64,000 nt of DNA, from contig BDDD01001482.1 of assembly GCA_001972305.1 (NCBI GenBank), forward strand, positions 124,001 to 188,000. The letters run 5' to 3'. Shown here in pieces: positions 4,236 to 46,840 of this stretch. Under the pieces are notes generated by a model. That model ran no database searches, was not told the DNA's origin, and saw only the letters and a program-made list of their open reading frames with translations. This DNA is from Cephalotus follicularis. Its lineage: Eukaryota > Streptophyta > Magnoliopsida > Oxalidales > Cephalotaceae. A program made the translations under genes and the position numbers. Each line of letters starts with the position of its first letter. Positions within the stretch are counted from its first letter, which is position 1.

Positions 4236-6400
4236 TGTTCGAATAGGGTGTCCCTGCAAGCCACGAGAGGTTACATGTACACTCTGATTCAACGTTCCTA
4301 GTTTCAGTTATATTCTATCGTGCATATATTTTTTATATTGGCAAGAATATATGGCTCATCCCAATCAACCAAAAGAACAGAATGATTATTCTTAATTAAC
4401 TGTACGCCATATATTGCCGTCTCACATCAAAGGGTTGGATCTCTCACCAGGGAGGCCATGATATTGAGATCCCTATTCCCTGTGACTAAACTTGTTCCAA
4501 GTCATAGGTTCACAATCTTTGGGCCATTGTAGAACTGTGATAAAGACTTGCCACTTTAGGCTTGCTCCCAAGGAGGGAGGATAGATCATCTCATGGACCA
4601 TTCGGTATTATCTTAAACCTAATGTGGGGTGTGTGCCTGGTTGCATGATGCTGAACAGACCCACCAATAGGGTCCCTATTTGGATAGTCTATACCCATGT
4701 CAATTGGGAATCCCTTGGTCTCGCTAGTGTATAGTCTATGGTGACTAGTAGGTCCATGCCTACGTTGTTCCTTTGACCTGAGCTACTAGCATGCATTATG
4801 TGGTGACTGCTTGACTTTGATTTCTGCCTTCCCCAGCACTAGCCACATGCTGGCAAAAGTGTTGTCTTTGGGTTTTGTGGTAGCTGCATTGAGATGTATA
4901 AGCCAGCGCGCAACAAGGGATCGTCACACCCGGGTAGAAGGTGACCAGCTCTATTTGATCTGTGTATGTTGTAGACTTTAAAGTCCTGATCAGACATAGG
5001 TGGACAGGAAAGTAGAGGTTTCTGTGGGATGTCTGCCGTTAGTCTCAGTGAATTCACCGATTTTATAGAATAGCAGAAAAACTAGGGGTGACATTTATCC
5101 AAACCGTAGACCGCGATCAGGGCTAAGTATGACGAGGGATACATGATACATATGCAGATGACTGAGTAAAGCGACTCGCTATTCGATCCCTGATTGATAG
5201 ACATGGTAATATAGGATATGGGGGGTGACTGGAGATCACATAGGGGCTATTTTATTAGTCGGTGACTATGAAAGTGGTCGTACCAGATGACAGGGTGCTC
5301 TGGGAATTTGTCATCATGTTGGAGATCGATAGGCTTTCGGGTCCCGCTTGATTACGGTGAGAAGTTAACATCAAGGAGATGTTACTTTTACCAGGAATGT
5401 TTTATTTGCTAGACATATCACTGGTTGAGATAGTGAGTTCACGCATCATCATAATAAAATATTTCGGCCAAAGGTTTGAGTGTTGGAGAAGTTATTTTGT
5501 CAGGAAAAAGAGAATTTGGGGCGACTAAGGTCTTGCGAGACTTTAGCAATTTGTGCATAAATTAGCCAAATAGTGGTTTATTTAATTTTAGCCAAATATG
5601 CCCTTGCCCATTTATGAGACCATTTTGATTGGTTTCCCTTTTTTGTCTTATGTGCTTCTAAAACTTGAGTGATGGACAATCTTATTTACAACAAATGATG
5701 GGAACATGTCTTACCTTTTAATTAAGACACATGAGTAGACTAGAGGTGGGACCCATTTCATTTTATTAATGAAATGGCTAGCCATTGGGGCGTGCACACG
5801 AGAGAGAGAGAGAGAGAGAGAAAATGAGACATGGGTCTAATTAAACATACAACATCAATTTACAGTTTCTCTCTCCAGCCTTCTTCCTCTCACCCGACTT
5901 CTCCCTCTCTTCTCCTTCTTCTTCACATGCTCTTGATCCTCCATTAATGGTGAACTAAAAAATCTCAGTTTTTCTGGATAGGAAGACAACGTCTCATCCT
6001 CTTCTCACATACATGATCACAAAGGGTGGAGATAACTCATAAAATGTGTTTTATATTGACTCTTTGTTATTGTAGATTTAGTTCAACGTCACAGTAGCCT
6101 TCCTCCTTCAATTATGTTCAAGGCCGGAGCTTGTGGAGCATCTTTGGTGAAGGAAGAAATTTTGGAAGTGAAGAAATCATGAGTTGCCATTTTTGGGTCC
6201 AACATCCAAGCTTGAAGACATGGATTCTTGCTTCACATTTGTTGTTCGTATGGCGTCTGTGAGCATCTTTTTTAAAGACAAATGGCATAAATCTTTGTTT
6301 GGAGGAACACACAAATTTGGAGAATTTGAATGTGGATAGCACAGAATGAGGTATTTGTATTCTATCCATTCCCTTCTTTTTTGTGATGTTTCTATGTGTT
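4236..6400 (+). mobile_element. Copia B 3' LTR (right boundary unclear)
   Basis: The LTR begins TGTTCGAATAGGGTGTCCC after a polypurine tract. It carries blocks shared with the other copia LTRs here, such as GTTCCAAGTCATAGGTTCAC near 4495, a GACTAGTAGGTCC block, GGGATCGTCACACCC and CTAAGTATGACGAGGGATAC, then a TAGTGGTTTATTTAATTTT block near 5570 and a CT-rich leader near 5870. Similarity by eye fades after about 6100. Somewhere before 6805 it gives way to the end of the gypsy C 5' LTR; I could not fix the junction. Confidence 0.65.
5800..5821 (+). repeat. (GA)n microsatellite
   Basis: An uninterrupted run of about eleven GA units inside the copia B LTR, at the place where related LTRs have purine-rich leader sequence. 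Confidence 0.9.
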
Positions 6401-6979: not shown

Positions 6980-8098
6980 ATGGTACGAACAAGGAACACC
7001 GCTCAGAGAACTGAACCAGCTGTGGCTCGGGAAGGAGTAAGAAATGAGCCTACTGTGGATGAAGTGGTGAGACAGGCAGCGGCTAAAGAGGTGAATCGGG
7101 TGATGCACCTACAAAATCCAGGACAAGGATGTCGTGAGCAAGTTGCGGAGGAGAACGTACCAGTTGATGCTCATGCAGATAGGGGAGCTGGGGACCGACC
7201 TGACACTCCAGTTAATGTCTGGCTTGAGAGGTTCCAAAAGCAAAGTCCTCAATCCTTTTTTTTAGTGCCCACACCTGTGGAGGCTGAGTACTGGATTGCT
7301 CATATGGAGAAAATTTTTGATATGCTGGGGTTTAGTGATGATCAGAAAGTGAAATTGGTTGCGCATAAGCTGGAGGACGATGCCCAGACATGGTGGAAGG
7401 CGTTGAAGATAGCTAAGGGTGGAGCTGTAAAGTCTTTTATCAGCAGTATTTTTCCCACTGCTGATAAAGAGGCTTATGCAAGGGAGTTCGTTATCACAAG
7501 AGAGAAGGAGGGTGAGTCAGGCACCGAGTTCTTGGCTCGGTTTAGCAGATTAGAGGGCTTTGCTTGACCTGTAGTGGGGTCAACAGTAGAACAGGCAAAA
7601 AAATTTAAATGGAAGTTGTACTATCACCTCAGAGGAAAGCTGATAAACTCAAGATTTGTTAATGTATCGGAGGTTGCAAATGCTGCAAAGAACTTAGAGA
7701 TGGAGAGGTTAGACTTCCAGGCTGCTCGCCAAGAAAGAGAGAGGAAGCGTAACAAAGGTAATGCTCAGGGCCAAAATTCGGGACAGCAAGGTAAGGGCCA
7801 AAATGGTAAGCAGCAAAGGAAAAATGATAATCGAGGACAACAACGATAGCCTGGTAATGATCAGAGGCAGATACAAGGAGCTGCTGGTGGGGGTAACCCC
7901 AATATTTAAATTACATAGTGTGACACTTGTGGGAAGAGGCATCTGGTTGGAACGTGTTACAAGGCTTCTGGGGCATGCTTTGTGTGTGGAGAGTTGGGTC
8001 ATCGCTTTAGAGACTGTCCGGACCCTCGTGCAAAGGAGAGGAGAAGTAATGGTGGCGATGCGGGACAGCGCAATGTGGGAGGCAGAGTCTTTGCATTG
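6980..8098 (+). pseudogene. Gypsy C gag (capsid and zinc knuckles), broken
   Basis: The frame from the ATG at 6980 shows a Retrotrans_gag domain: EYWIAHMEKIFDMLGFSDD, then AQTWWKAL, and the block FVITREKEGESGTEFLARF. It continues past a TGA at 7565-7567 in the same frame (NVSEVANAAKNLEMERL), then a lysine/glutamine-rich basic tail. Further stops follow at 7847 (TAG), 7907 (TAA) and 7916 (TAG). The same frame then reads two zinc knuckles: CDTCGKRHLVGTC (one residue short of CX2CX4HX4C) and CFVCGELGHRFRDC (a perfect one). Gag packages the RNA in virus-like particles. All decay here is by stops; the frame is kept up to the protease. Confidence 0.9.
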
Positions 8099-8530: not shown

Positions 8531-9340
8531 TTGAAGGCTCAGAAGTTGGTGGCTAAGGGCGCTGACGGATTCTTAGCTGTTGTTAAAGATGTCTCTAAGG
8601 ATGAGCCTCGCCTTGAGGACTATCGTGTTGTTAAAGAGTTTTCAAATGTGTTTCTGAAGGAGTTACCAGGATTGCCACCTCAACGGGAAGTGGAGTTTAC
8701 CATCGAGCTCATTCCTAGGGCGTGACCTATATCCAAAGCGCTATATAGGATGGCAACGCTAGAGTTGCAAGAACTGAAGGAGCAGTTGCAAGAATTGTTG
8801 GATCGGGGTTTCATACAGCCGAGTGTTTCACCGTGGGGTGCTCCGGTTCTGTTTGTGAAGAAGAAGGATGGTTCTATGAAGCTGTGCATAGACTACAGGG
8901 AGCTGAATCGGATTACTGTTAGGAACAAATACCCTTTGACTAGGATTGATGACTTATTTGATCAACTCCAAGGCACACGGTATTTTTCTACGATCGATTT
9001 GAGAGTTGGATATCATCAGCTACGGGTAAAGGATGAAGACATACCTAAGAATGCTTTCTGTACACGGTATGGGCATTACGAGTTTTTAGTGATACCGTTC
9101 AGACTTACCAATGCCCCGGCGATCTTCATGGATTTGATGAATCGGTGGTTTCATGAATTCTTGGATCGGTTTGTAATTGTGATTATAGATGATATCTTGT
9201 TGTATTCCAAGTCAAAGGAAGAACATGAGGAGCAGCTTCGTATAGTGCTGCGGATTTTGAGGAAGAATCAGCTATATGCGAAGTTTTCAAAGTGTGAATT
9301 CCTATTGGTGCAGGTGGCATTCTTAGGCCACGTGGTTACA
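8531..9340 (+). pseudogene. Gypsy C reverse transcriptase
   Basis: Recognised by EFSNVFLKELPGLPP, then after one TGA (8723-8725) by [59 protein letters not shown] and [10 protein letters not shown]. The catalytic Asp-Asp pair is at 8188 plus 1000 (9188-9193); the usual aromatic or Phe before Ile-Asp-Asp is Ile here. From 8726 the frame is open through RT and into RNase H. It is among the best preserved RT segments in the window, yet with the upstream stops it cannot be made as part of Gag-Pol. Confidence 0.9.
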
Positions 9341-9920
9341 GCAGAAGGCATTAGTGTTGATCCTGTAAAGGTTGAGGCTATTACTAAATGGCTGGGAGCT
9401 ACTACAGTAACAAAGGTAAGAAGTTTTCTGAGTTTGGCTGGTTACTATAGGCGGTTTGTGGAAAGCTTTTCCTCGATAGCCTTACCATTGACACAACTCA
9501 TGAGGAAGGGAGCCAAGTTTGTGTGGAATGAAGAACGAGAAGCAAGCTTTGAGCAGTTGAAGAATGGTCTTGTGTTTGCACCAATTCTTCGTTTGCCGTC
9601 TGGGTCAGGTGGTTACCAGATATATAGTGGTGCTTCTAAGAAGGGTTTGGGATGCGTATTGATGCAACACGGTCATGTTATAACTTATGCTTCCAAGCAG
9701 CTTAAGCCTAGCAGCAGTTGTTTTTGCGTTGAAGATATGGAGGCATTATTTGTACGGAGAAACTTGTGACATTTTCACCGATCACAAGAGTCTGCAGTAC
9801 ATTTTCACCCAGAAGGAGCTGAACATGCGGCAGAGGCGGTGGTTGGAGCTTTTGAAGGATTACGATGTTAATATTCAATACCATCCTAGTAAGGCTAATG
9901 CAGTAGCTGATGCTCTTAAT
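9341..9920 (+). pseudogene. Gypsy C RNase H, catalytic Asp lost
   Basis: Follows RT through the connecting block [18 protein letters not shown]. The RNase H start reads [15 protein letters not shown] where the family has YTDAS, so the first catalytic Asp is Gly (codon 9629-9631). A frameshift near 9720 moves the domain to the next frame, which continues with [42 protein letters not shown] and [15 protein letters not shown]. The domain would degrade RNA in the RNA-DNA hybrid; this one is dead on two counts. Confidence 0.88.
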
Positions 9921-10049
9921 AGGAATAGTTCTGGGAGTGTAGTGACTTTGCTTACTCAGCCACAGTTGATATCGGATATGGAGCGGTTGGATTTGAACTT
10001 GTTTGGTCGGGGTTCTGGAGGTTTTGTTGCTGGCTTGAATATTGAACCT

Positions 10050-11325
10050 ACTCTCAAATCTCGGATTAAGGCGGCTCAGAGTGATGATGAGGATTTATGG
10101 GCCTTAGTCCAGAATGTGGATGAAGATAAGCAGTCGAAGTTCCGTGTGGATGATCATGGAGCTATATGGTTGGGTAGACAGTTATGTGTGCCGGCTGATC
10201 CTGAAGTCCGAGAAGCCGTTTTGTTTGAGGCACACAGCTTTCAGTTCTCTATACATCTTGGTTCTACAAAAATGTATAGAGATTTGAAGAGAAATTTGAC
10301 GTAGCTGAATTTGTTGGGAGGTGTTTGGTCTGTTAGCAGGTCAAGATCGAACATCAGTGATCTAGTGGGTTGCTATAGCCCTTGGAGATTCCAGTTTGAA
10401 AATGGGAGAGCATAGCTATGGATTTTGTCACTGGCTTGCCAAGAACATTCAGGAGGAATGATGCCATATGGGTAGTGGTGGATCGATTGACCAAGTCGGC
10501 TCACTTCTTGGCTATTCGAGAGGGCTTCTCTATGGGCCGATTGACGGAGGTTTTCCAACAAGAGATAAGGAGACTTCACGGGAAACCTGTATTTGTGCTT
10601 TAGAGTGGACTGGGAACTGGGATGAGTATTTGAGCTTGGTGGAGTTTGCATATAATAACAGTTGGCATGCTAGCATTCGTATGGCTCCGTTTGAAGCATT
10701 GTATGGGAGGAAGTGTCGTGCTCCGACATGTTGGGATGAGGTTGGAGAAAGAGTTATTTAGGGACCCTAGCTAGTCCAGGTCACTACTGGGAAAGTAGCA
10801 ATAGCAAGGGAAAGACTAAAGGTGGCTCAATACCAACAGAAGAGTTATCGGATAAACATCGGAGGGACATGGAATTTAAAGCAGGTGAACATGTGTTTTT
10901 GAAGGTTTCATTGGAAAGGAGTCCGTCATTTTGGGATGAAAGGGAAGTTGATTCCTTGGTTTATAGGACCATTCGAAGTTCTTGAAACTGTTGGAGCAGT
11001 AGCTTATCGGTTAGCTTTGCCTCCATAGTTAGCACATGTCCATAATGAGTTCCATGTGTCCTTGTGAGGGGTTATCGGCATCATCCCCTTCACGTTGTTC
11101 ACTATCCTTTGGACAAGATCCGGGAGGATTTGTCTTGTGATGAGGAGGCCGAGGCTATTCTGGATCGGCAAGAACGGGTTACTTGTAAGAAGACAATTCC
11201 ATTTGTCGAGGTCTTGTGGAAGAACCATTCAGAGTGAGAAGCTACATGCGAGTTAGAGGATCATATTCGGGAAGAATTCCCTTGTTTGTTTGAGTGAGGT
11301 ATGTGTTTATTTATGATTTCGGGAT
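10050..11325 (+). pseudogene. Gypsy C integrase and chromodomain-like tail, core deleted
   Basis: Begins with the His-His part of the zinc-binding domain ([20 protein letters not shown]) and a damaged Cys part near 10300-10400. The core starts at MDFVTGLPRTF (10418) with VVVDRLTKSAHFLA and RLHGKPVFVL, then jumps straight to GNWDEYLSLVEFAYNNS. Compared with gypsy A, about 55 residues are missing at about 10600, taking the second catalytic Asp and the Glu. Later frames give ALYGRKCRAP, a damaged GPF region, and a chromodomain-like tail (AEAILDRQE, TIPFVEVLWKNHSE, ELEDHIREEF) ending near 11300. Confidence 0.88.
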
Positions 11326-23344: not shown

Positions 23345-25484
23345 TGTCAGTTTCATAGTTTGAAGTTAACTTAAAGCATATGAGGAGGCCATCACATAAA
23401 AGGGTTGGATGTCGTGCTTAGGTGTTCTGAGAATGACTACCTTACTCTTTGTGACAAATGTTCCAAGTCGTGAGTTAACAGTCTTGGTGTAATAGTATAA
23501 CCGGATAGACTTGCCGTGATTAGCCTCGCATCCCAACAGTGGAGCATCGAGTATCTCATTGCCATATGGCTAGAGCCTAGGGGAAGTTACGGGGTGCATA
23601 CTAGCAGTATATTCACTGAACTGACTCTCCATGGGAAATCTATTTGGATAGACCTACCTGTGTCAATAGGATTCCTATCTGTGTCTGTAGTGCATAGTTA
23701 CAAGGTGAGTAGTAGGCCATACATGACCTGCACAATTCCTTTGACCTGAGCAGTTGCTTGACATTGCGTAGTGACTACTTGACGTTGATTTCAGGCATAC
23801 ACAGCTCCTATAGCTAGCAAATGGATTGTCTTAGATGCCTGGTAGGATTTATGCGCAAGTGTGAGTGAGCACGCGACAAGGAATCCTCACACCCGTAGGG
23901 TTGGGTGACTGACTCTGTACTATATGTGTCCATTGCAGACTTGAAAAAATCTGGACAAGTGCCGGTGGACTGGAAGAAGGTTCTGGGAGGTCCACCGATA
24001 GTCGCAATATGTAACCAGATTTATAGTCATCGCAGCTTTCATATATGGTGACACTTAATCCATACCCTAGACCGTGGTTGGAGCCAAGTATGACGAGGGA
24101 AACACTGCACACATGCTGGCGACAGAAGAAAGTATTGGTTTAACCGGTTATCGATTTATAGACGTCGAAATTAATTAGGAATTTATTCCACGGATCCGAA
24201 AGGTTATAGGATATCATTCCGGGGCCACATGGATAGTCAAAGACTAGTGGGGTGGACGGACCGGAACTTTTGAATGTTCTGGGAAATTTATTATTCGTAC
24301 TGGATTCCAAACTGAACTTTAGTGTCCCACCTGATTATTGGTTTGTTAACATACATGCAAAGCATATGTCATTAGGTAGGAGGTTAGCATGAATGTTACT
24401 TTGCATGAGTAATTTGATTAGCTAAGCTTTTAGCTTCACTATAATCAAATTACTCTAGTCACAGGTCGACTGTATTACAAGTAATCATGTGGGGTGATTA
24501 GAAGAGAGAATGGGGCGGATAGGGATGAACATTAGTGTATGCATGCCATGGCCGAATTTAGGTTGTGAACGGCACAACATATTTGGCCCGATCCCCCTTC
24601 CTAAGCTGCCCCACCATTTGTCTTCAAGTGACGATTGAATGGACCTAAAGTATGAGTGTAGGATATTCAAGCTATATGCCTAATTTTGGGCTTATTTTAG
24701 AGTGCAATTGGGCCATCTTGGGCATGTGTGTATGGAACACACATTGGGCCAAATTTAGCATGCTAAGGAAGCACGTTTCGACCAAGCCCTCTTCATCCCT
24801 CTCTCCTAGCCACCTTCTATTTGACTTCTAGTGAAGATTTAGCATGTGGTCAACGGCTTGAGTGTAGGACACTCAAGCCCATGTGAAGTTATCGCCTAAA
24901 GTAAGGTGTGTATCACATAGGCATGGGATGCCTTACTCTTTTTCACATGATGGCTGGCCTTAGTAGAATTGAATGAGAGACTAAGAGTCTCATGCATTCA
25001 ACTTTCGACGTTCTCTCTTGTGGGTGAAGTCTAACCCGAAGCTCTCGCAACTTCTTCTCTCTTCTACCTTTCTTCATACTCTCTTTTTGGAAGCCATGAA
25101 AGGGAAAAGCTAAGAGCTTCTAAAGAAATATGAATACAGTCGGATGCTCTCTACCCTTTTTTCTAGCCATTATAGGTGGAGGTATACTAAACATTGTAGT
25201 ACACCTTTACTTATTTTGGCTATGAGGTTTAGGAGTTATAACTCTCCTTGCAACTAGGTCACTTGGAGAACCTCGTTATCAAAGGATGACCTTACATGGA
25301 AATTGATGTTAGTTCTAACCTAGTTATTCTGAGTGGGAGAGAGTTAGACACTTTCAGACCCCTCTTGGAGATACTACTAGCCGTTACCTTGGAGCTTTGG
25401 TGGTGGAGTTTGGAGGACAAGCAAAGGACCTAAAATGTAGAGGGAACATACTAGAAGGAAGGAGCCATCACCGGGGGTAACAAA
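23345..25484 (+). mobile_element. Copia D 3' LTR, part 2
   Basis: Continues the LTR begun at 14009 after the TAGGT duplication. It aligns by eye with other copia LTRs: GGGTTGGAT near 23401, a diverged TTCCAAGTCGTGAGTTAAC near 23461, TATCTCATTGCCATATGG, GTATGACGAGGGA near 24087 and GGTTTAACCGGTTATCGA near 24137. The second half (24480-25484) is leader-like with no reading frame of note. It is interrupted at 25484 by the CACTA element. Confidence 0.82.
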
Positions 25485-25507
25485 CACTACTAGAAAAAGA
25501 ACATTTC

Positions 25508-25705
25508 CCGACCGCCATTTTAGCCGACGACTTTGACGACCGCCTTAGCGGTCGGTAAATCCCATCAAGTGAAATCATGTTGCCTTCCCATCGGCAACCG
25601 TTCTTTTGGAATTGAGCGGTCGGCAATTCCAAAATTAACAATATTATTCATTAATTCAATTTAGCAACCACAATTGAAGTTTTACCGACAGCTATAGCGG
25701 TCGGT
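25508..25705. repeat. Left subterminal CCGACCGC repeats
   Basis: Direct and inverted copies such as CCCGACCGCC, CGACCGCC, AGCGGTCGG and GAGCGGTCGG. In CACTA elements such repeats bind the transposase. Confidence 0.85.
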
Positions 25706-26510
25706 ATTTGTCTTATTTTGAATTTGTGCAGATTGCTTTTGATCAGTTCCTTTACACGGTTCTTTTTTTTTACATCTTTATCTCTCTCTCTCTCTATCAT
25801 CTTCATCGCGCTCTGTCTTGAAATCGCTCTCTGTCTTAAAATTTCTCTGTCGTCAACTCTGATCGGTCCAAGCTCGAAGCTTCAAATCCATTGGGTGATG
25901 CTCGAAGCTCCAAATCCATCTGTCCGGTTTGTATTTGATCTGCATATATACATATATAATTATATTTTGACAGATTGAATTAAGGAAACACACAAAATTC
26001 AATAATATGTTTACATAAGATTTTGGGAGTTTGACTATATATTGAAGATGAGTTTGATTATATACATATGCATTAAGGTATTTACTTGCAGCATTAACAT
26101 GATAATTAGTGCTCTATGACCTGATGGATTTTGTGATTGTATCAAATTATTATCCTTTGTAGAATCCCAATTTTTAATGTAGTCAACTGGTTTCTGTTTT
26201 CTTCTTAAGCACTGTCAGGTTCTTGTAAGGTTTAGTGTTTGTGTTTTCTGCTCTTTCTATATGTGTTTGACCTTATTTTTTGCCATGATATAAGCTTATG
26301 GTCATCTTACAATTGTAATGGGCAACTGAATGTTCCTGAAATTTAAAGTAATAATTTATCCTCTGCCAGGAATAGTTTGTATATATATCCGATAAATTTA
26401 TCAGGTATACTATTTATTCTTTGTCTTGTTATGGATCCCTGCTATGAAGGATTAGTGGGAGGTTGCAACGACACAGTGGGTTGGGCCTATGTTTATGTCT
26501 ACTTTTTAAT
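25706..26510. other. CACTA interior, nothing recognised
   Basis: AT-rich sequence with a CT-microsatellite near 25780 and a duplicated GCTCGAAGCT(T/C)CAAATCCAT at 25873-25920. No protein or RNA gene recognised. Confidence 0.6.
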
Positions 26511-26516
26511 GCATTA

Positions 26517-26807
26517 TTATTTCTTTGCTAGACTGTGCTTGTTGTTGTGCATCCACACCTTGAGTACACTTCTCTTGAGACCAATCTCTTGCCAAAACTG
26601 TTGCACCATAGTTTCTTCTTGATTTTGAATCTTCGAACCCACTTTCTCTGCAAAGTTGAGCATTTTGTCTTTCTGTACCTGTGTAAACTTTGTCCTAAAC
26701 CTCTTCTTAACAAGTTGGTGTTGTGGCCTAGCCATTGCTACCCCACCACCACCATCTTCCTGTTCATCTGACTCTGAAGGGAGTGACCCCATGTTGTAGG
26801 ACATCAT
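26517..26807 (-). pseudogene. Captured zinc-finger homeodomain (ZHD) C-terminal fragment
   Basis: A 96-residue open frame on the minus strand reads [16 protein letters not shown], then [40 protein letters not shown] and [15 protein letters not shown] before a stop. This is the homeodomain of plant ZF-HD transcription factors, including the recognition helix KVWMHNNKH. The N-terminal zinc finger is absent. The Trp usually found after EKVG is Ser. It is not disrupted by stops, but is only the DNA-binding half. It is opposite in strand to the other three captured fragments. Confidence 0.9.
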
Positions 26808-28050
26808 GCTTCATGAACATTTTAACGTTACAACTGGGTTTGTTAGCAATGGTAAACTATTGACTCCAAAGCAGTTGTCACTCCTTTTCCTTGTCTCAGA
26901 ACTTCCCTAGTGTATATTCCTTCTTAATGGGTTCCTTGTTAAGTCAAAAACGTTGATTAGTCTTGGTGAAGGACTGCTGTTTAACTCCAAGTAGGGACCA
27001 GGGAATAGAAAGGTGTCTTATTAGACGTATTGAGTTGGTTATCGACACCTAGAAAAGGATGAATTTCTTTCTTTCTATGGAAGGAAATAAAAAAGATAGG
27101 AAGAAAGAAACGCACAGAAAAGAAAAGTTAGCCCTTGAAGTATAAGCATAGAAGGTTCTGCTAATTTCTTCTTCCGCTAAAATGGTGCAGAAATACTTTC
27201 CTCAGTTTTTCTTTCTTTATTTATGCCCAATATTGCAACACACATGTTTCTAATAGGTATCTGAGGGTAGGTATTTCAAAAAGAAATTCCTATGATATGG
27301 TCTTGTTAAAAAATGATGTACCAAACAGAAAAGAAGCAGGCATTGTGGGGTCGCCTTCTAATTTTTCCATGAAGGCCAGGCATAATGTGTAGAAGTAGAC
27401 ATTACTTTGATGAATAGTTATGATCCATATTCCAAGTCTAAAGCTAATGGATGGTGAAAATGTACCTAAAACATTAGGTAAATCGTTGAAGATTTTGTGG
27501 ATTCTTGATTGATACAGGAACCCATCTCCAGTCTACAATTTTTCTTTATTATGGTGACATACAGTTACCTAACAAAGAAATTGTAAACATCATAATTAGC
27601 CTAAGACAGGAGAGAATCAGATGGGACTAAGGTGATTAGATTGAAAGTGGTTGTTTTCTTTAAATAAAAGCTAGGAGTTTTGTTGTTGACAACTGTCCAC
27701 CCTTTAAACATCAACTCTCTTAGAAAGCAATACTCTATCAATTTTTAACACCACACATGAGGGAAAACCTTCTCCAATGCTGATGAGCTACCAACAAAAA
27801 AAGAAAAGAAAAAAAGTATTAACCCCTCTAATGGACTTAAAAATGAATTGCTTGAGGTATATATACTTAAGAAATACTTGCTAAGAGAGAGAGAGCGAGA
27901 GAGAGAGAGAGAAACTATACTTCGCTTTTTATCCTTTTAGTTGAAAAGAGACAAAGCAACAATAGTAAAGGGTCTTAAACCACTCTACACTTTAAATAAA
28001 AAGAAAGAACTTGCAAATTCAGTAACAAACTAATAAGCAAATTGAACCAA
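26808..28050. other. CACTA interior, nothing recognised
   Basis: AT-rich non-coding sequence with a (GA)n run at 27884-27912. It could be the intron or upstream region of the captured ZHD piece, read on the minus strand. No coding blocks recognised. Confidence 0.5.
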
Positions 28051-28319
28051 TTTTTGTATCCACACATTCTTGAAAGTGAGTGAATGCAATAGAGTGACAT
28101 GAAGGTCAACAGTTAAGATTCCCCAAAGAAGAAACTCATAGATGAAGGAAATGGGTAGTAGTAATAAAACTTCTTCATTGTAATTTCCACTGATCATGGA
28201 CATGAAACACCAAAAACAACTTTGAGCTTAAACACACTTCATCATAGCAAAAGACAAATCTTTTGGCTAAGAAGATACAATGGAGAATTAGTTTGAAAAA
28301 GATGCACAAAGTATAACAA

Positions 28320-28500
28320 ATATGTGGTTTAGAGAAGATGTGTGAGAATGAGAGGGGAGAGAGAGAAGAGAAGAGAAGAGAGTTTTGCAAGTGGGTTTTG
28401 CAATGAAGCACTAAACAAGGGCTTATATTTGTAGTGAGGTTAGAAGGAGAGTGGAGAGAGAGTGAGAGAAAAAAGCAGATATCTTTGTTTGACAGACAAA
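28320..28500 (-). promoter_or_regulatory. Possible captured promoter and leader (minus strand)
   Basis: On the minus strand an ACAAATATAAGCCC TATA-like element near 28420-28433 is followed by a CT-rich leader (CTCTTCTCTTCTCTTCTC). This layout fits a plant core promoter reading toward the ZHD fragment about 1.5 kb away. Link to that gene is inferred. Confidence 0.35.
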
Positions 28501-28576
28501 GAGGCATACAGTAATGTCTCTAGTTCAAGGGAGGCAGATTGAAAAAAAAATAAAGGGATTGCTTTGCTTTCACTAT

Positions 28577-31000
28577 CAGCCGGCTGATGCTCGTCTACTT
28601 GAGGGCGACCCATTGAAAATTGACCAGGTGAGTCTACTCTAACCATTTCCCTTCTTAGTATATGTCAAATTGGTTTAATAGCTGCATCACTGATGTTGCT
28701 GTATTTTGGTTTGGCAGTGTGCACTAACTGGTGAGTCCCTTCAAGTGACCAAATCCCCTGGAGATGGTGTATACTCCGGCTCTACTTGCAAACAAGGAGA
28801 GATTGAAGCAGTGATGAGATATGCTAATAATTACTTCATGGATCTATCATAAAGAGAATGACTGCAATTGAAGAGATGGCTGGCATGGACGTGCTTTGCC
28901 CCATTCAAGACCGAAACTCTGACATTGAACAAACTATCTGTTGACAAAAATCTTGTTGAGGTTGGTTGGCTAATGCATATGATTGCCCCTTTCAGATGCA
29001 CTTCTTCCTAGAGGAATATAAGTTCATTTCAATGTTTTACTGCTTAAACTTGTCAGGTTTTTGCAAAAGGAGTAGATCCAGATAGTGTAGTTATGATGGC
29101 AGCTCGAGCCTCTAGAACAGAGAATCAAGATGATATAGATACTGCCATAGTTGGGATGTTGGCTGATCCCAAAGAGGTAGTCATTGACACCAGGAACTTT
29201 TTCCTTGTTTCTAAATAAATGTTAGCTATTTACTAATTCATATGTCAATATGATTTAATCATTTTTATTGCTTGCTTCTAAAAGGCACGTGCTGGCATTC
29301 AAGAAGTACACTTCCTTCCTTTTAATCCTACTGATAAGCGCACAACATTAACTTACATTGATGGTGATGGCAAAATGCATAGAGTTAGCAAAGGTGCACC
29401 AGAGTAGAAAAATTCTCCTCACAACCTTTTTAGTATGTAGTTGTTCATTGAACGCAGAGTTCATGCTGTAATTGATAAGTTTGCAGTGCGAGGCTTACGA
29501 TCTCTTGCTGTAGCATACCAGGTAATTGTACTTCTATTCTCTTTGCCAATTTCTTGGTATTATATGTCCAATATTTACTTTGTTGTGTTTACTTTAAACC
29601 ATATTAGTCCATCCTGATTTGTAATTTCTATTCGATATCCTTGTCATGTTATGCAGGAAGTTCCAGAAGGTACAAAAGACAGTCCTGGTTGGCTGTAAAT
29701 TAGTATTCTCTACTCCTGTTGTGCTGATATTGCTTCTATAGAATGATTACTTGTTCTCATCTGTTTGCCTCCGATGTTAAACATTCATAATTTAGTGATC
29801 AAATCACTAAATTGTTACCTTTTTCAATTTGAGATTAAAGTTATTACATGTATTCTGAATATAAAATTGACATTAGTCATTTATATTTCTAAGACGTTTG
29901 ACTTCTATCAGGCGATCGGCTGGCAATAGGAAAGGAAACTGGACGTCATTTGGGAATGGGAACCAACATGTATCCATCATCTGCTTTGCTAGGACAGGTC
30001 AAGGATGAGTCCATTGTTGCTTTACCAATTGATGAACTGATAGAGAAAGCTAATGGCTTTGTTGGTGTTTTCCCTGGTAATTTTTCTCACCTTTCTCAAT
30101 TGACTAAGAGTTTTTCTAGATTTGCTACATGCTTGACCAAATGTCTGTGAATGCTAATTTTTTTCGCCTTGTATTAATTTTCTTTGTTTAGCTAGATGTA
30201 ATCATTATGTGTATTGTTTCAGAGCACAAATATGAGATAGTCAAATGCCTGCAAGCTCTACATTGTTGTATTAATTTTCTTTGTTTAGCTAGATTTAATC
30301 ATTATGTGTATTGTTTCAAAGCACAAATATGAGATAGTCAAACGCCTGCAAGCTAGGAAACATATCTGCGGGATGACTGGTGATGGAGTCAATGATGCTC
30401 CTGCTCTTAAGAAGGCTAATATTGGGATAGTTGTGGCTGATGCAACTGATGCAGCTCGTAGCGCTTCTGACATTGTCCTTACTGAACCAGGTCTCAGTGT
30501 CATCATCAGCGCTGTGTTGACAAGTCGGGAAATCTTCCAGAGGATGAAAAATTACACAGTAAGCATTCTGTCTGACTTTAACTAGTTTTGATTTTTGAAT
30601 GATAGTTCTTGGAAGTAATGTTACAAATGTGTTATGTAGGCTAGCTCTTATTGTCAACACAATGCATCACTTTGTTTTATTTTTTTTTTCAAATTATCTA
30701 TTTTTTTTTGTTTCTTTTTTATGCAGCTTTATGCAGTTTCCATTATAACCTGTATTGTAGTAAGTTGGAGCTTCCCTGCTTTTTATTTGCTTTCCTCAGT
30801 CCATCTTATCCTTCAAATTTACATCATCTTATTTGTGGCTCATATTTCATGCTTATGCTCTGGTGGTGACAGCTTGGTTTTATGCTTCTGGCCCTCATAT
30901 GGAAGTTTGACTTTCCCCTTTTCATGGTGCTTATCATTGCCATCCTCAATGATGGTTTGTTCTTTATTCTCTTACCTGAAACACATGCTCTTGTATTGTG
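28577..31000 (+). pseudogene. Captured plasma-membrane H+-ATPase gene fragment (multi-exon)
   Basis: Exons and introns of a P3A proton-pump gene in correct order. Pieces: PADARLLEGDPLKIDQ (ends 28627), [16 protein letters not shown] with KQGEIEAV, then after a loss of about 100 residues KRMTAIEEMAGMDVLC to 28960; [18 protein letters not shown] (29057-29176); [15 protein letters not shown] to GAPE (29285-29404), a stop (29405), then VRGLRSLAVAYQ to 29521; EVPEGTKDSPG (29657); [16 protein letters not shown] to 30076; [14 protein letters not shown] to 30558; LYAVSIITCIV (30727-30759); [10 protein letters not shown] to 30954. Introns keep GT/AG borders. The phosphorylation motif DKTGT reads FKTET, so the catalytic Asp is gone. 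N-terminus and C-terminal regulatory domain are missing. Confidence 0.93.
30171..30355 (+). repeat. 97-bp tandem duplication across an intron-exon border
   Basis: The stretch starting GTATTAATTTTCTTTG at 30171 is repeated from 30268, including the intron end and the first codons of the exon (HKYEIVK). In the first copy the acceptor is TTTCAG; in the second it is TTTCAA, so the acceptor next to the long exon is lost. Confidence 0.88.
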
Positions 31001-31199
31001 TGTGGTTGTTTTATAAATGCGCATTCCTAGTTAATATGCACCATGGTACACCACTTTGTGCTTATTATCCTTTGTACAACTTCTTATTGTGGAAATGTTT
31101 TTCTTGATGCCTATTTGTCTTAGCGAGTTTCCTGTATTACTTAAATTTAGTCTCTTCTAAAATTTTGAAATGGCAGTCCTATTCTTGTTTATGTTGCAG

Positions 31200-31473
31200 G
31201 TTGTAGCCCTGAGGGCGGATGGATGCCCCAAAGTTTGGGTTGTTACTTCTGACCGTTGTCAACAGCAAGCGGCATATTGAGCAGTATGTGTTTTCTCATA
31301 AATAATTTAAAACAAGTGATGTGTATCTTTTGCAATTTCTTCACTCAAGTTATATACTTTATCTTTGTTTGGTTGTGCTATATGAATGTCTGGATGTACT
31401 TGGTTATACATTATACTGTCTCAATTATTTCTAGGGTGAATATGTTTGGAGTTCGAAAGGATTGGTAACTGAG
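31200..31473 (+). pseudogene. Captured YacP-like NYN domain fragment
   Basis: Two exon-like blocks. The first (31200-31283) reads ADGCPKVWVVTSDRCQQQAA, then a stop where Gly is expected. The second (31435-31473) reads EYVWSSKGLVTE. They are separated by an intron with GT..TAG borders. VVTSD...QQ..A.GAG..VWSSKGLV matches plant proteins with a YacP-like NYN (putative RNase) domain. Only these two pieces are seen. Assignment rests on recalled family motifs. Confidence 0.65.
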
Positions 31474-31978
31474 GTGAGGCACGAGGATTTGCAATGGCAT
31501 GATGTATGGTTGATGTGTACGTGGTGATAGTGTGCTCTCCCTATAACTTTGTGGAGGGCTGAGCCCAAATATGATTTTCATCAATCCATCATTAATTGAG
31601 ATTAGAATGATATGATTTAGATTTAGGTGTGGTATGCTGAGGGCTGAGCCCAAATATACCAGCTGTGTTTTTCTTTACAGGGGGCATAGTCCGATAAACG
31701 AATACATCATGCCCGATTTTTGGGAGAATTTAAGAGTTAGAATTTATTTGAGTTGATTGTTCTGCTTGCTTGAGTTTGATTTAAATGTTTATATTTATAA
31801 CACTTCTTGGAGTATGACTTATACCGTTATCTTTTTATAGCTTTAATGATAGATCTACTCTTGTGATTGTTTAATTGCCCAACATTGTGATGTTTGCTAA
31901 AGATCTTGGAATCTATTTGTATTTTCAGAGCTAGATATGTAAATGTATGCATGTTTAATTTTTTCAGTTTATATGCAG

Positions 31979-32079
31979 ATGATATTGAAGATGAGAAAAG
32001 AGAGCTAGAACATTCTTCTCTTCAAGAAACATTGGATATGGAGCTCAAAGATCTGGATAAGAGACTTGAACAAAAGGAG
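31979..32079 (+). pseudogene. Captured KIN-4 kinesin exon fragment
   Basis: One exon-like block between an AG and a GT reads DDIEDEKRELEHSSLQETLD, then MELKDLDKRLEQKE. This acidic then coiled-coil stretch resembles the segment after the motor domain of plant KIN-4 (chromokinesin-type) proteins, where EHSLLQ..MD.EL.EL.KRLEQKE is conserved. No motor domain is present. Confidence 0.65.
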
Positions 32080-32469
32080 GTTAATTACTGTCTAGATTGC
32101 AACTGCTAGTGTCATGTATATATTACAGCCTAATTGTACACAAATTGCTATAAATCTGTTTACATATTGTAGATTTTAGGATGTAAATTTTGAATGGATC
32201 ATATTTCCTATAATTATATCAAAAATTTGTATAACAAGTGGTATAAGCTTGTTGAAAAGACTCACTCCTGTCGGTTTTTTTCTAATGAATTGGCATTTTT
32301 TCTTCACGTACTTGCAATCTTTGGATCAGCAAATAGGAATCAAAGAAAATGTTAATTGCAAATCGTCGTAGTGGTTGCTTGTCCACCAAACAATCTAACT
32401 TATAATAGACCAAAAGTGACTGGTCACAACAACGATGGTAGCAAAATTTATATAATTCTCATAATTTAA

Positions 32470-33140
32470 TTTACCGACCGCTTCAAGCTTTCCCGACCTC
32501 AGCAAAATTTATGTAATTCTCATAATCTAACTTACCGACCGCTTCAAGCTTTCTCGACCCCCCAGAGTTGTCGGGAAACCGTTATAAAACTCATTTAATT
32601 TAAAAAATTATGATAATTTCCGACCGCTTAAATATTCCCCGACCGCCATTGCAGTCGGCAAATCCTTATAAAATTAATTTAATTTAAAAATTATTGTTAA
32701 TTGCCGAGCGCTTAGAGATTTCCCGACCGTCTTTGGTGGTTGGGGAACCATTATAAAACTGATTTAATTTCAACAATTATTGTTAATTGCTGACCGCTAA
32801 TTGATTTCCCAACCGTTTATCAAGGTCGGCAAACCCTTATAAAACTAAATTAATTTCACAAATTCCTTTTATTTCCCGGCCACTTACAACATTTGCCGAC
32901 CGTCTCAGCAGTCGGTAAACCCCCATAAAATTTATTTTCTGACACCGATCAACAGCAACCGCTTCCCTTCCCGACCGTTTTAACAGTCGGTTAGTGAAAA
33001 ATGCGGTCGGGAAAACGATCGGGGTATAATCGGCGATCCAATTATAAGCGGCCGCCATTGCGGTCGGCTTGGCGGTCGGGGAAAACTTTCGCTGACCGCT
33101 TTTAAGGTTTTCCTGACCGCCAAAGCGGTCGGGAAATGGT
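32470..33140. repeat. Right subterminal CCGACCGC repeats
   Basis: At least a dozen CCGACCGCT/ GCGGTCGG copies in both orientations; between 32510 and 32850 they ride on a roughly 100-bp unit with TTATAAAACTnATTTAATTT. Denser and longer than the left zone, as is common in CACTA elements. Confidence 0.85.
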
Positions 33141-33158
33141 CTTTTTCTAGTAGTGAAA

Positions 33159-33771
33159 TCACTTTCTCCATCCTCATTTTCATTTAGTTTTTTCACGACC
33201 AAACTACGGTTTCTTGGTGGAAACCCTAACCATGATTCTTTGTGTGTTTTAGTGTTTATGGCTGAAAACCTAAACCCTTTTGTTGGCTTGGAACTTTCGA
33301 CCCTATTAGGGTTCTTTCAAGGCTAACCCTAATTGTCAATTTTGGTGGGATAAAAAAGGTCAATGTTTGAGCCGTGGGTTCCATATTCCAAAATGGTGTT
33401 GTGGTTAAACTGGAATGCTAATTAGTGATCATTGGGTCATTTAGGACATTTATGGAAATATATGTTTAGGATGTTCCCTTGCTTGGAGATCTTTAAATGG
33501 TAAGAAATTAAAATTGACCCTATGGAACACCTATGCCATAAAATGCTCCTAACCCTCTAATGTGTATTCAATAGGAGACTCTCAGTTGCTGTTTCATTTT
33601 CCATTGGATGATTGGACCTTTTACTGCGTTATCATTTATGTATAATTGTTGTGACATGCGTGTAATAAAGTTTTAAGTTTATCCTACTTCGTCATATGTA
33701 TCCTAGGCCCTACTACTATATTGTATTGAATGTAACGCCTTTAGTTTGTCACCCAGACACGGGGTGTTATA
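33159..33771 (+). mobile_element. LTR sequence right of CACTA; ends as gypsy E 5' LTR
   Basis: After the CACTA element and its AAA, the copia D LTR should resume. By 33771 the sequence ends CACGGGGTGTTATA just before a gypsy primer-binding site, so the last part is the gypsy E 5' LTR end (usual TTACA mutated). Where copia stops and gypsy starts could not be fixed. No coding sequence is seen. Confidence 0.5.
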
Positions 33772-34688: not shown

Positions 34689-37233
34689 TGTTAGATTAGG
34701 GGTGTCCCTGCATGCCACGAGGTGGCTCTGCACAAATATATATATATATGTATGAAATGCACTCCTTAACTAGAGATATCTCTATAAGCCGTGGGGCGGC
34801 TACATGTGTGTATATTACACTCTCTATTTATACAATATGAATTCCTTTTTGTGTTTTATAGTGCATATTCAATCAACAATGGCAACCCGCTTTACGTATA
34901 TCCCAAACCATCTTAAATGGATCTGGTGATCACCATGTCATCCGAGTAAACATATAGCGCCCTATCGTTCGAGGGGTTGGATCTCATTCTTGAGAGGTTA
35001 CAAGAATGAGATCCTTACTCCCTTCTGACAGAACGTTCCAAGTCATAGGTTCACGTTCTTAGGGCAATAGATGAACTGCAAAGACTTGCCATATTATGCT
35101 TGCTCCCGGGTTTAGTGGAGGATGGATTATCTCGTTACCATTTGGATTTATCCTAAAGCATAATGCGGGGTTCGTTCTAAGGAGCATGAGACTGAACAAA
35201 CCCACCATAGGAAACCTATTTGGAAAGTCATACCTATGTCAATACGATTCCTATAGTCTCAGTAGTGTATAGTCAATGTTGACTAGTATACCATTTGTGG
35301 AGCTATGTTGTATCGTTAGACTTGAGCGGCTGGCATGCATTGTGTTGTGACTGCTTGGCTTTCATTTCTGCCTTCCCCAGCCCTAGGCACGTGCTGGCAA
35401 AAGGGTTGTCTTTGGGGCTTGTGGGAGCTTCATTGAGATGTATGGGCGAGTTCGCAATAAGGGATCGTCACACCCATATGCAGGGTGATCAGCTCTATAT
35501 TATTTATGTCCGTTGAGATTCTAAAATCCTAATCAGGTATAGGCAGACTGGAAACAGGGTTTCCGGGGATGTTTGTCGAAAGTCTCAATGCGTACATAAA
35601 TTTATAGTTATCGCGGACATTATTCCGAACCATAGGCCGCGGTCAGAGCCAAGTATGACGTAGGATACATGACACATATGCCGATGACTGGATAAAGTAC
35701 TGGTTTAACCGGATGTCGACTTATAGACGTAATTGATTCTACGGATCCGGGGGGTGATGGGAATCACACCTGGGCTGTTTTAATATTCGGGGACTATTGG
35801 GATAGTCGTGATGGGATGTTTTGAGAAATTTATAGTCGTACCGGATACAAACCGGGCTTTCGGGTCTCACCTGATTATGGGAAAAGCGATGCATGATAAA
35901 CACATGCTAGCTTCGCGGGAAATCTTGTTTTAGCTAGTATGTATTAATTTGGCATTAGTGGTTTATTTATTTATTTAAATTTACCACCGTATTATCAAAT
36001 TGATATATTAAGAGAAACCATAGTGGGGGTATGTTTAAGATACTATGTGTAAGGGGACATAACATAAAACAAAGAGAGAAACTTTTTATTGTGTTCTTTT
36101 TGATACAAAAGGAGAAAGAGACTTTGACAAAATAGACTAAGTCTTTTTGGCGTTTTGGACACGCCAAAAATTGCGCCTGGTACGCACAAGAGGGAGAGCG
36201 ACGCACAAGTACATGCCCAGCGCTTGGAGCGTGCTTCAGACCGGAGAAGACAACGTCGCAGGCGTCAGTGGCCAGGGAAAGAGGCCAGCTTTCATCCACG
36301 GTAAGCCTCTCTTTCTTTCTCCCCTATTTTTCTCTTCTTCTCTCTTGGTTTTGCCTGCTCGTTTTTCGTGTCACCCACTGTTGCGGCCTTCTCTTCCGCC
36401 GCCGGTGGTCTTGGTGGGTGGAGCCGCTTTGGCTCTACCTATTTTGGCCTTAGACTAGGTTTGACCGGCGTTGTATGGCCGGGTTTGTGCGCATAGAGTC
36501 GACCTTGGCAACTCAGTGCGTTTTGCACCGTGACACGGCGTTATGCGCCGATTCACGACGAGTCTTGCGGTTGGCAGTGTTGGCCATGCTTTGTAGGTGC
36601 GGGTTGTGGTGGTGCGGTGTCACGGCGATCCTGTTTTTGCCGAGCGGGTAAACTCACCGCCGTCTGTTCGCCATGTTCCAGGCCGAGCCTCACCGAGTCT
36701 CAGCCATCAGTGGCTTTATTGGGGTGTTGACATCCGCATATGTCATCGCCGGTCAATGTCACGTTGATCGAGTCGCACTGAGTCCGAAATCAGTGAGTCG
36801 TCGTCGTTGTTCGCCGTGTTCCAGGGAGCTTCCCGGCACGTCTCTGCCAGAAATGGGTCGAGCTGCTTTTTGGAGTCCGTTGGTATCTTGGTTAAGTTTT
36901 TTTTTGGACTGGCAGGAAACCAGCAGTGGAGCCTATAACCGGTAGTTGCTTCGGTAAGTGCATAGCAGCAAAGTGATGGAGCCGCCAACGTTGGTATGGT
37001 TCCTAATCTTATGTTTTTATTGTTTACCGAATCGGTTTCGGTTAAGTGGATGTATGCTTTACTTTACAGTTTGTTCGATTGAATATTAAACAGGGATCCT
37101 AGGCGCATAGATTTTGGTAGTAAGATGTAATTGTGAACCTTGACTTACAGTCTTGGTGTTTTTGAAAAATTAAATTTATACACACTTGCATCCTAGACCC
37201 AAAATCTACCGGCACCCTTCCCGGGTTCCAACA
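34689..37233 (+). repeat. Copia element 5' LTR (2.55 kb)
   Basis: Includes a CTATTTATACAAT TATA-like element near 34825, the TTCCAAGTCATAGGTTCAC block at 35037, further blocks shared with other copia LTRs to about 35900, a CT-rich stretch after AGAGGCCAGC near 36300, and a GC-rich zone (36250-36900) with no protein recognised. Confidence 0.92.
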
Positions 37234-37235
37234 AG

Positions 37236-37247
37236 TGGTATCAGAGC
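37236..37247 (+). other. Primer-binding site of copia element
   Basis: A perfect TGGTATCAGAGC two bases after the 5' LTR, complementary to the initiator tRNA-Met 3' end. Confidence 0.95.
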
Positions 37248-42365: not shown

Positions 42366-44928
42366 TGTTAGATTAGGAGTGTCCCTGCATGCCACGAGGT
42401 GGCTTTGTACAAATATATATGTATGTATGAGATGCACTCCTTAACTGGACATATCTCTTTAAGCCGCGGGGCGGTTGCATGTGTGTATATTACACTCTCT
42501 ATTTATACAATCTAAATCCCTTTTTGTGTTTCCTAGTGCATATTAATCAACAATGGCAACCCGCTATATGTATATCCCAAACCATCTTAAATGGATCGGG
42601 TGATCACCATCTCATCCGAGTACACATATAGTGCCCTGTCGTTCGAGGGGTTGGATCTCATGCCTGAGAGGATATGAGAATGCGATCCTTACTCCCTTCT
42701 GATCGAACGTTCCAAGTCATAGGTTCACTTTATTAGGGCAATAGGTGAACCGCAAAGACTTGTCGTATTATGCTTGCTCCCGGGTTTAGTGGAGGATGGA
42801 TTATCTCGTTACCATTTGGATTTATCCTAAAGCATAATGCGGGGTTCGTGCTAAGGAGTATGAGACTGAACAAACCCACCATAGGAAACCTATTTGGAAA
42901 GTCATACCTATGTCAATAGGACTCCTATAGTCTCGGTAGTGTATAGTCTATGGTGACTAGTAGACCATTCTTGGAGCTACGTTGTATCGTTAGACTTGAG
43001 CGGCTGGGATGCATTGTGTTGTGACTGCTTGGGTTTGATTTCTGCCTTATCCAGCAATAGCCATGTGCTGGCAAAAAGGTTGTCTTTGGGCCTTGTGGGA
43101 TCTTCATTGAGATGTATGGGCGAGTTCGCAATAATGGATTGTCACACCCGTATGCGGGGTGATCGGCTCTATATTATTTATGTCCGTTGAGATTCTAAAA
43201 CCCTGATCAGGTATAGGCAGACTGGAAACGGGGTTTCCGGGGATGTTTGCCGAAAGTCTCAATGCGTACGTAAATTTATAGTTATCGCGACTTTACATAG
43301 GGGTGACATTATTCCGAACCCTAGGTCGCGGTCGGAGCCAAGTATGACGTAGGATACATAACACATATGCCGATGACTGGATAAAGTACTAGTTTAACCG
43401 AATGTCGACTTATAGACGGAGTTGATTCTACGAATCCGGGGGGTGGTGGGAATCGCACCGGGGCTGTTTTAATAGTCGGGGACTATTGGGATAGGCGTAC
43501 CAAAACTCATGGGATGTTCTGAGAAATTTATAGTCGTACCGGATTTAAACCGGGCTTTCGGGTCCCACCTGAATATTGGAAAAGCGATGAATACTTCACA
43601 CATGCTAGCTTGGCAGGAAATCTAGTTTTAACTAGTATATATTAATTTGGAATTAGTGGTTTATTTATTTATTTAAATTGACCAGCGTATTGTCAAGTTT
43701 ATTTACTAAGAGAAACCACAGTGGGGGTATGTTTAACATAGAATGTGCAAGGGCACATAACTTAAAACAAAGAGAGAAACTTTTTATTGTGCTATTTTTA
43801 ATACAAAAGGAGAAAGAGACTTTGACAAAATTGACTAAGTCTTTTTGGCGTTTTGGACACGCCAAAAATTGCGCTTGGTACGCGCAAGAGGGAGAGAGAC
43901 ACACAAGTACGTGCACAGCACCTAGAGAGCACTTCCGACCAGAGAAGACGACGCCGCAGGTGCGGTGGCCGGGGAAAGAGGCTGGCTTTCATCCACGATA
44001 AGCCTCTCCCTCTTTCTCTCCTCTTTTTCTCTTCTTCTCTCTTGGTTTTGCCCGACGCGTTTTTCGAATCACCCACTATTGCGGCCTTCTCTTCCGCCAC
44101 CGGTGGTCTTGGTAGGTGGATCCACTTTGGCTCTACCTATTTTGGCCTTAGACTAGGTTTGACCGACGTTGTTTGGCCGGGTTTGTGCGCACAGAGTAGA
44201 CCCTGGCGACTCAGTGCATTTTGCGCCGTGATGCGGTGTTCCGCGCCGATTCACGGCGAGTATTGAGGTTGGTTGTGTTGGCCATGCTTTGTAGGTGAGG
44301 GTTGTCGCGGTGCGGTGTCACGGCGATCCTGTTTTCGCCAGCGGGTTGACATGCCACTGTCAGTTCGCCACGTTCAAGGCTGAGTAATACCGAGTCTCGG
44401 CCACCAATGGCTCTATTGGAGTGTTGACGTCCACATATGTCGTCGCCGGTCAATGTCACGTTTACCAAGTCGCACTGAGTACGAACTCACTGCGTCGCCG
44501 CCGCTGTTCACCGTGTTCCAGTGCGCTTTTCGGCACGTCTCCGCAAGAAATGGGTCGAGCGGATTTTTTTGAGTCTGTTGGTATCTTGGTTGATTTTTTC
44601 ATGGACTGGCAGGAAACCGACCGTGGAGTCGGTAACCGCAGTTGCTTCGGCAATCGCGTAGCGGCAAAGTGATGGAGCTGCAAACGTTGGTATGGTTCCT
44701 AATCTTATGTTTTTGTTGTTTACCAAATCTGTTTCGGTTAAGTTTATGTATCCCTGACTTTACGGTTTGTTCGATTGAATATTAAACGGGGATCCTAGGC
44801 GCATAGATTTTAGTAGTGAGATGTATTTGTGAACCCTCACTTGCAGTCTTGGTGTTTTTGAAAAATTAAATTTATACACACTTGCATCCTAGACCAAAAA
44901 TTGACCGGGACCCTTCTTGGTTCCAACA
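42366..44928 (+). repeat. Copia element 3' LTR (2.56 kb)
   Basis: Matches 34689-37233 throughout, including TTCCAAGTCATAGGTTCAC at 42711 and the GC-rich zone at 43930-44660. Begins TGTTAGATTAGGAG, ends TTGGTTCCAACA. Confidence 0.93.
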
Positions 44929-44933
44929 GAGTG

Positions 44934-45430
44934 GCGGTAGTGGCGACGATAGTGGTAAGTCTCAGAAGATTGACAACAATGATTCTTCTGGTTCTCAAGC
45001 TTGTAGCCCTTCTAGCGTTGGGAATTAGTCCCAGTTCTTAAGGAGGAGAGGCTAGTCGAGGAGCTCTAGTCGGAAGAATTGACCCAGGACCCTTGGCCAG
45101 AGTACACCTTCTAGGTTTTTTGATGCAGGTAGCCAGGGTTCTACATCTCTTTGCATGCAATGTAACAAGTCCATCTACACCTCAGACAATTACAGATGGC
45201 ATTTGGGTCTTTGCTTGAGTTGTGGTGTTGTGGTTCACTTTACCAGGAATTGTCTTTACAGAGTAGCTCAGGCATCATAGCCTCATGCTTCGTATGGACA
45301 GGAATCACAGAAGCTGTATAGTGGTTCACCATCATATTCCTATGGTACTTCTCAGCCCAAGGGGAAGCTGGTTGCAGGTTATGAGTTGTGTCTAACTCCG
45401 TGATTGGTGGTATTCTTTGACTTTTTTAGC
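44934..45430 (+). pseudogene. Gypsy E gag, second part with zinc knuckle
   Basis: Resumes the gag frame (SGGSGDDSGKSQKIDN) directly after the GAGTG duplication. A zinc knuckle CLSCGVVVHFTRNC (CX2CX4HX4C) is readable near 45215-45256, preceded by a Cys-X2-Cys pair at about 45155. Several stops and frame changes. Confidence 0.82.
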
Positions 45431-45940: not shown

Positions 45941-46840
45941 ATCATTGCCACCTAACAGAGAGACGAAGTTTGTTATTGATCATCTACCCAGGACTACTCC
46001 AGTTTCTACAGCATCGTACCGTATGGTACCGATTGAATTGAAGGAGGTCAAAGTACGGTTATATGACCTTATTTACAAGGGTTTCATCAGACTCAGTGTT
46101 TCACCTTGGGGAGCACCACTCTTGTTCTTCAAGAAGAAGGATGGACCACTGCGGATGTGCATCAATTATCGGTAGCTGAGTAGGCTGACAGTGAAGAAAA
46201 AGTACCCTCTGTCGCAAATTGATGAGTTGTTTGACCAGCTGCAAGGTGCTAAAGTTTTTTCTAAACTTGATTTGAGGTCGGGTTGTCACTAGTAGAGATT
46301 TAGATAGGGTGAAATTACGAAGGCTGCTTTCAGGTCCAGATATGGACACTATGAGTTTCTAGTTATGCCTTTCGGCATGACTGATGCACCTGCTGCTTTC
46401 ATGGACTTGATTAACCAAGTGTTGAACCTTACTTGGATTAGTTTATATTGGTCATCATTGATGACAACTTGGTCTATTCTAAGACCGATGAGGAGAATGC
46501 CCAACACCTTTATACAGTCTTACATACTTTGAGAGATCGTCGCCTATATGCCACGTTCAACAAGTGTGAATTATGGCTATCAAAGGTTGCTTTTCTTGGG
46601 CATATCATATCCACCAGTGATTTGTCAGTGGATCCATCAAAGATCGAGGCAGTGAAGGATTGGAAATGGCAAGAGAATATGCATGAATTTGGCAGTTCAT
46701 TGGGACTAGCGGGTAACTACCACAGGTTTGTCGAGGTATTATCACGGATTGCCACTCCGTTGACTCAACTTACTCAAAAACATGCACCTTTGTATGGGAT
46801 TCATGCTGTGAATGGAGTTTTCAGGAGCTAAAGGAGCGAT
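45941..46840 (+). pseudogene. Gypsy E reverse transcriptase
   Basis: Reads [45 protein letters not shown]-stop, [45 protein letters not shown]; a frameshift near 46440 is followed by [12 protein letters not shown] with the Asp-Asp pair kept, and FNKCELWLSKVAFLGHIIS. Dead by at least three stops and one frameshift. Confidence 0.9.

Follow-up and report, generated by a model that had tools for sequence, protein, structure and literature searches.

A probable Pack-CACTA transposon with pieces of at least four host genes in Cephalotus follicularis

Cephalotus follicularis (Oxalidales) is a carnivorous plant, and in a 64-kb stretch of its contig BDDD01001482.1 (the whole analysed stretch, hereafter the window) we describe a 7,671-bp element which, with high confidence, we assign to the non-autonomous CACTA (En/Spm) DNA transposons of the Pack-CACTA kind, with fragments from four or more genes of the host as its cargo. 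The initial annotation of this DNA had proposed a gene-shuttling element that joined at least four loci, and this proposal is supported by the ends of the element, its subterminal motifs, the four gene fragments and the introns kept inside them. The parts of the element, numbered from the first letter of the window, are the following:

25485-33155: whole element, 7,671 bp, with CACTA-type terminal inverted repeats (TIRs)
25482-25484, no strand: left target site duplication (TSD) AAA, read from the sequence
25485-25515, plus strand: left TIR, 31 bp, agreeing with the right arm at 30/31 positions
25507-25704, no strand: left subterminal region with 4 CCGACCG, by motif count
25720-25935, plus strand: CT-rich stretch adjoining the left end, read by eye
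26517-26810, minus strand: ZF-HD (ZHD) homeodomain fragment, open frame of 97 amino acids and a stop (TIGR01565; PDB 1wh5/1wh7)
28578-30954, plus strand: plasma-membrane H+-ATPase fragment with introns, about nine exon pieces in order (TIGR01647; PDB 5ksd; tblastn)
28578-28627, 28718-28960 and 29057-29176, plus strand: ATPase exon pieces 1-3
29285-29521, 29657-29699 and 29912-30076, plus strand: ATPase exon pieces 4-6
30223-30558 (with the duplication), 30727-30759 and 30873-30954, plus strand: ATPase exon pieces 7-9
30169-30354, plus strand: 97-bp tandem duplication in the ATPase fragment, copying an intron end and an exon start
31200-31284, plus strand: NYN_YacP exon fragment 1 (protein matches; 7/7 relatives)
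31435-31473, plus strand: NYN_YacP exon fragment 2, weaker (4/7 relatives, E 0.034-0.084)
31936-32079, plus strand: kinesin exon (31968-32079) and the end of the likely preceding intron (31936-31967), from the Cephalotus kinesin model
32440-33155, no strand: right subterminal region with 11 CCGACCG, by motif count, including an 86-bp repeat array
33125-33155, minus strand: right TIR, 31 bp, pairing with the left arm
33156-33158, no strand: right TSD AAA, read from the sequence

Ends of the element and search for a transposase

Both TIRs open with CACTACTAG and form a 31-bp inverted repeat with one mismatch. Their opening 16-mer, CACTACTAGAAAAAGA, is present at 25485-25500 (plus strand) and 33140-33155 (minus strand), exact in both places, and nowhere else in the window when up to three mismatches are tolerated, a tolerance at which shuffled sequences give a mean of 0.80 matches. 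With 16-mers made up of just one or two different letters set aside, the window holds 337 perfect inverted pairs of 16-mers, and the TIR pair is the sole one whose first arm starts within 25000-26000, as well as the sole one whose second arm starts within 32400-33200. The 3-bp AAA flanks the element directly on both sides; since two 3-mers from the window agree by chance in 1.8% of cases, this duplication taken alone is weak evidence.

The motif CCGACCG has 18 copies in the window, 15 of them inside the element (in both orientations) and 3 elsewhere. Four of the 15 stand in the left 236 bp (25485-25720) and 11 in the right 716 bp (32440-33155), with no copy in the 6.7 kb between the two ends. 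The matching ends, AAA duplications and subterminal repeats that had been noted earlier are thereby upheld. PMC8978399 characterises CACTA elements by inverted repeats at their termini, a 3-bp duplication and repeats in the subterminal regions, and the present element has TIRs starting with CACTA, a 3-bp TSD and short subterminal repeats in direct and inverted orientation. The CT-rich stretch at 25720-25935 is possibly the leader of the transcript of the parent CACTA element. No further end of this family was found in the window with the 16-mer at up to three mismatches, and a comparison of the end regions with the rest of the window gave a best score of 17, a value without a control of its own.

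Among the 44 stop-to-stop frames of at least 50 amino acids in the element, no transposase family was detected in Pfam at E 0.01, in agreement with the initial annotation; from shorter frames, some exon pieces were included in the scan. Seven Pfam families were obtained over the 44 frames, the credible ones being the ATPase-type PF00122, PF00702 and PF08282, and the kinesin family PF25764. Weak matches to RE_HaeII, YebG, ACP_SdgA_C and DUF4533 were judged to be due to chance. Pfam alone gave no family for either NYN piece, and for the ZHD piece only weak, unrelated ones, while Rfam gave no match in the window. With no transposase detected, host coding DNA captured and introns kept, the element has the composition of a Pack-CACTA.

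Gene fragments carried by the element

One passenger is the H+-ATPase fragment. All five exon pieces that were scanned match TIGR01647 (profile positions 312-347, 351-389, 467-520, 521-600 and 613-639), and one piece matches PDB 5ksd, plasma-membrane ATPase 2, with E 9.9e-42. A tblastn search with an AHA2 query covered 7/9 pieces; the remaining two, short ones at 29657 and 30727, were positioned by eye. Piece 1 begins abruptly near 28578, and the fragment has internal deletions, stops and frame breaks; in its 97-bp duplication, the acceptor CAG of the first copy reads CAA in the second. Thus, the earlier reading of H+-ATPase exons with introns on the plus strand stands, corrected to about nine exon pieces with internal deletions.

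On the minus strand, the ZHD frame scores 74.1 bits against TIGR01565 (cut-off 57.45) and matches PDB entries 1wh5 (E 1.7e-19) and 1wh7 (E 2.5e-19), which confirms the homeodomain named by the initial annotation. A zinc-finger half is typical of the ZF-HD family; here, a search of the six frames of the element with short signatures gave none in a fitting place, and the fragment is better described as a homeodomain with no sign of its zinc-finger half. The homeodomain also deviates at positions where 1wh5 and 1wh7 agree, e.g., W to S and C to W. As a separate observation, made by eye, the region 28178-28577 (minus strand) upstream of this frame resembles a gene promoter with a CT-rich leader, with a TATA-like stretch near 28420-28432.

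The two NYN pieces had been annotated as a pair of YacP-NYN-like exons, and a protein search supports this: 7/7 candidates matched with E ≤1.3e-7, all of them carrying PF05991, and the best match was a protein of Cephalotus follicularis itself (E 1.6e-18). When these seven relatives were searched back on the window, fragment 1 was found by all seven and fragment 2, weakly, by four. In fragment 1, a stop codon replaces the Gly of the relatives, and the expected donor lacks GT. A PDB search with the NYN pieces returned a single, unrelated match (E 1.6).

For the kinesin exon, the wider-length protein search gave 2/16 candidates at E ≤10, a Cephalotus kinesin (E 5.1e-10, 95% identity) and an Erythroxylum kinesin (E 0.03), the two proteins having 1,249 and 1,266 amino acids. 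A narrower search, in a length range up to about 1,034 amino acids, gave 0/13 candidates at E ≤1, and a PDB search gave no match up to E 10. The Cephalotus model, labelled low quality by its source, matches the window in 45/48 residues over 31936-32079. Of these 48 residues, the first ten lie ahead of the window's AG acceptor, in a part where the sequence of the Erythroxylum protein is different; it seems that the Cephalotus model reads through an intron end and that the element carries this same intron end. The KIN-4-like exon of the initial annotation is a kinesin exon, probably of the KIN-4 class, an assignment based on the shared KIF21A-like domain (PF25764), which we take to be a mark of KIN-4 kinesins.

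Among the 12 plus-strand exon pieces, AG precedes 11 and GT follows 10 (21/24 borders), a count to be read with the fact that the borders were placed with AG and GT sites in mind. Given these retained sites, it is possible, as the initial annotation proposed, that the passengers on the plus strand (ATPase, NYN and kinesin) are transcribed together. When the pieces are joined in a splice model of 1,545 nt, the longest frame starting with ATG has 140 amino acids and is mostly ATPase, so that, by this model, a joint spliced transcript would encode no long protein.

Origin of the passengers and alternative explanations

The introns kept in the ATPase fragment, and the intron end that the kinesin piece shares with the Cephalotus model, indicate capture at the DNA level, and they also suggest Cephalotus follicularis, or very close kin, as the host. 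In Cephalotus, the NYN and kinesin proteins are encoded on different contigs (237,285 and 615,316 bp), which means that the genes of this pair do not lie near each other in that record. For this pair, the one examined, the objection that the fragments are simply adjacent ordinary loci does not hold. A published model of capture has neighbouring transposon copies moving as one together with the intervening DNA (PMC8903248; review PMC13317346). The Cephalotus element would likewise have accumulated host sequence gradually, most likely as adjacent copies were mobilised jointly through their outer ends and took along what lay between. Its own movement would be by cut-and-paste, with the transposase provided by a related autonomous element. 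Its passengers would be decaying gene pieces and, if transcribed, their retained splice sites would lead to chimeric, mostly non-coding RNAs.

Several observations weigh against this explanation. Parents in Cephalotus were sought, and identified, for two of the four fragments, NYN and kinesin. No remnant of inner CACTA ends was found at the joins, where the best ungapped end-to-middle score was 16, compared with 13-19 in 30 block shuffles; because the inner ends would, under the published model, be lost by deletion or altered by mutation, these missing remnants speak neither strongly for nor against a fusion of neighbours. The flanks agree over three bases only, with the fourth and fifth bases different and thus no 5-nt duplication, while 5-nt TSDs are given for rice and maize CACTA elements (PMC8903248, section 8). 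Finally, no other copy was found: the end sequence gave no matches against viral contigs, a collection that may omit records close to the genome from which the window comes.

The missing remnants also fit a different history, in which a composite pseudogene region, or a Helitron or Pack-MULE mosaic, was already present and was enclosed by two CACTA ends in a single event. The divergence from Cephalotus would suit this as well, as the kinesin exon differs in 2/37 residues and the NYN pieces in 5/41, with no clear difference between them (Fisher p 0.44). However, nothing positive points to such an event: no Helitron or MULE ends were noticed, though no dedicated search was made, and in maize it is reported to be common for CACTA elements to hold several host loci (PMC8903248, section 10). 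We consider a single enclosure rather unlikely.

It seems very improbable that selection acts on the element as an expressed chimeric gene, through a spliced plus-strand product or through a small DNA-binding protein from the ZHD frame. The retention of AG or GT at most exon borders and the ZHD frame, open over 97 amino acids, are what such a gene would show, but the ATPase and NYN pieces hold stops and frame breaks, the homeodomain deviates at positions common to 1wh5 and 1wh7, and an open frame is to be expected anyway in a fairly recent exon copy. To speculate further, the ZHD piece, with what by eye resembles its own promoter and leader, could yield a homeodomain-only protein without the dimerisation half, competing with intact ZHD factors, while the plus strand gives chimeric RNAs; if this were true, the element would spread a ready-made regulator, but we give the idea an extremely small chance. 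The least credible explanation is that of chance or an assembly artefact, with unrelated ends around four adjacent ordinary loci. The 3-bp duplication could indeed arise by chance, yet the 31-bp inverted ends fall at the borders of the clusters of subterminal repeats, the exon pieces are truncated and two of the parents lie on different contigs, so we practically discard it. Having weighed these explanations, we return to the non-autonomous CACTA element, which we regard as a mobile vehicle for scraps of genes rather than a functional gene.

Related systems, surroundings and significance

Tgm-Express1 of soybean is a CACTA element that likewise carries exon and intron sequence from several host genes unrelated to one another (five in that case), with captured pieces that keep working splice sites (PMC1947982). 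It differs in size and location, being 5.7 kb long and inserted in intron 2 of F3H, while the Cephalotus element is 7.7 kb long and lies in repeat-rich DNA. Moreover, Tgm-Express1 has 12 distinct spliced transcripts, determined by RT-PCR and starting from the promoter of the gene in which it sits (PMC1947982), whereas the Cephalotus element is known from DNA alone.

The Tpn1 family of morning glory (Ipomoea nil) consists mostly of non-autonomous elements whose interior is replaced by host sequence and whose ends are kept (PMC5105172). Its build, with a 3-bp AT-rich TSD, a 28-bp TIR and elements that average 7,081 bp, is by description similar to that of the Cephalotus element; a putative autonomous element, TpnA1, is known in that family (PMC5105172), unlike here, where no such partner is known. 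Pack-CACTA and other Pack-TYPE elements of Arabidopsis, maize and rice are also non-autonomous and contain coding DNA of several loci; the maize Pack-TYPE elements often hold several loci, with Pack-CACTAs holding the most distinct ones, and the CACTA elements of that study differ from the Cephalotus element by their 5-nt TSDs, where ours has three bases (PMC8903248). The Cephalotus element therefore belongs to a known class as a previously unreported member, fitting on the tested features save the 5-nt duplication. Judged by titles and the beginnings of abstracts, none of the listed papers on Cephalotus with CACTA elements or transposons seems to deal with such an element.

The surroundings of the element are repeat-rich, as 6/10 long frames scanned have retroelement domains (integrase-end, gag, reverse transcriptase, RNase H). 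These six frames are at 378-863, 6980-7564, 8726-9766, 9684-10301, 46442-46828 and 54002-54808, two of them only below the Pfam cut-off. A long direct repeat, 34738-37238 and 42413-44934, with copies about 7.7 kb apart and 81-93% alike in pieces, possibly represents the two long terminal repeats of a single retroelement; for 203 bp of this repeat, a further copy lies at 4769-4971. At 61728-62213, there are seven copies of a 69-bp unit (91% matches), and on the minus strand a frame of 195 amino acids stays open across the array.

The known picture of gene capture by CACTA elements is unchanged by this finding. It would add a plant lineage in which CACTA elements carry host exons, and captured pieces of this kind may be taken for genes by annotators.

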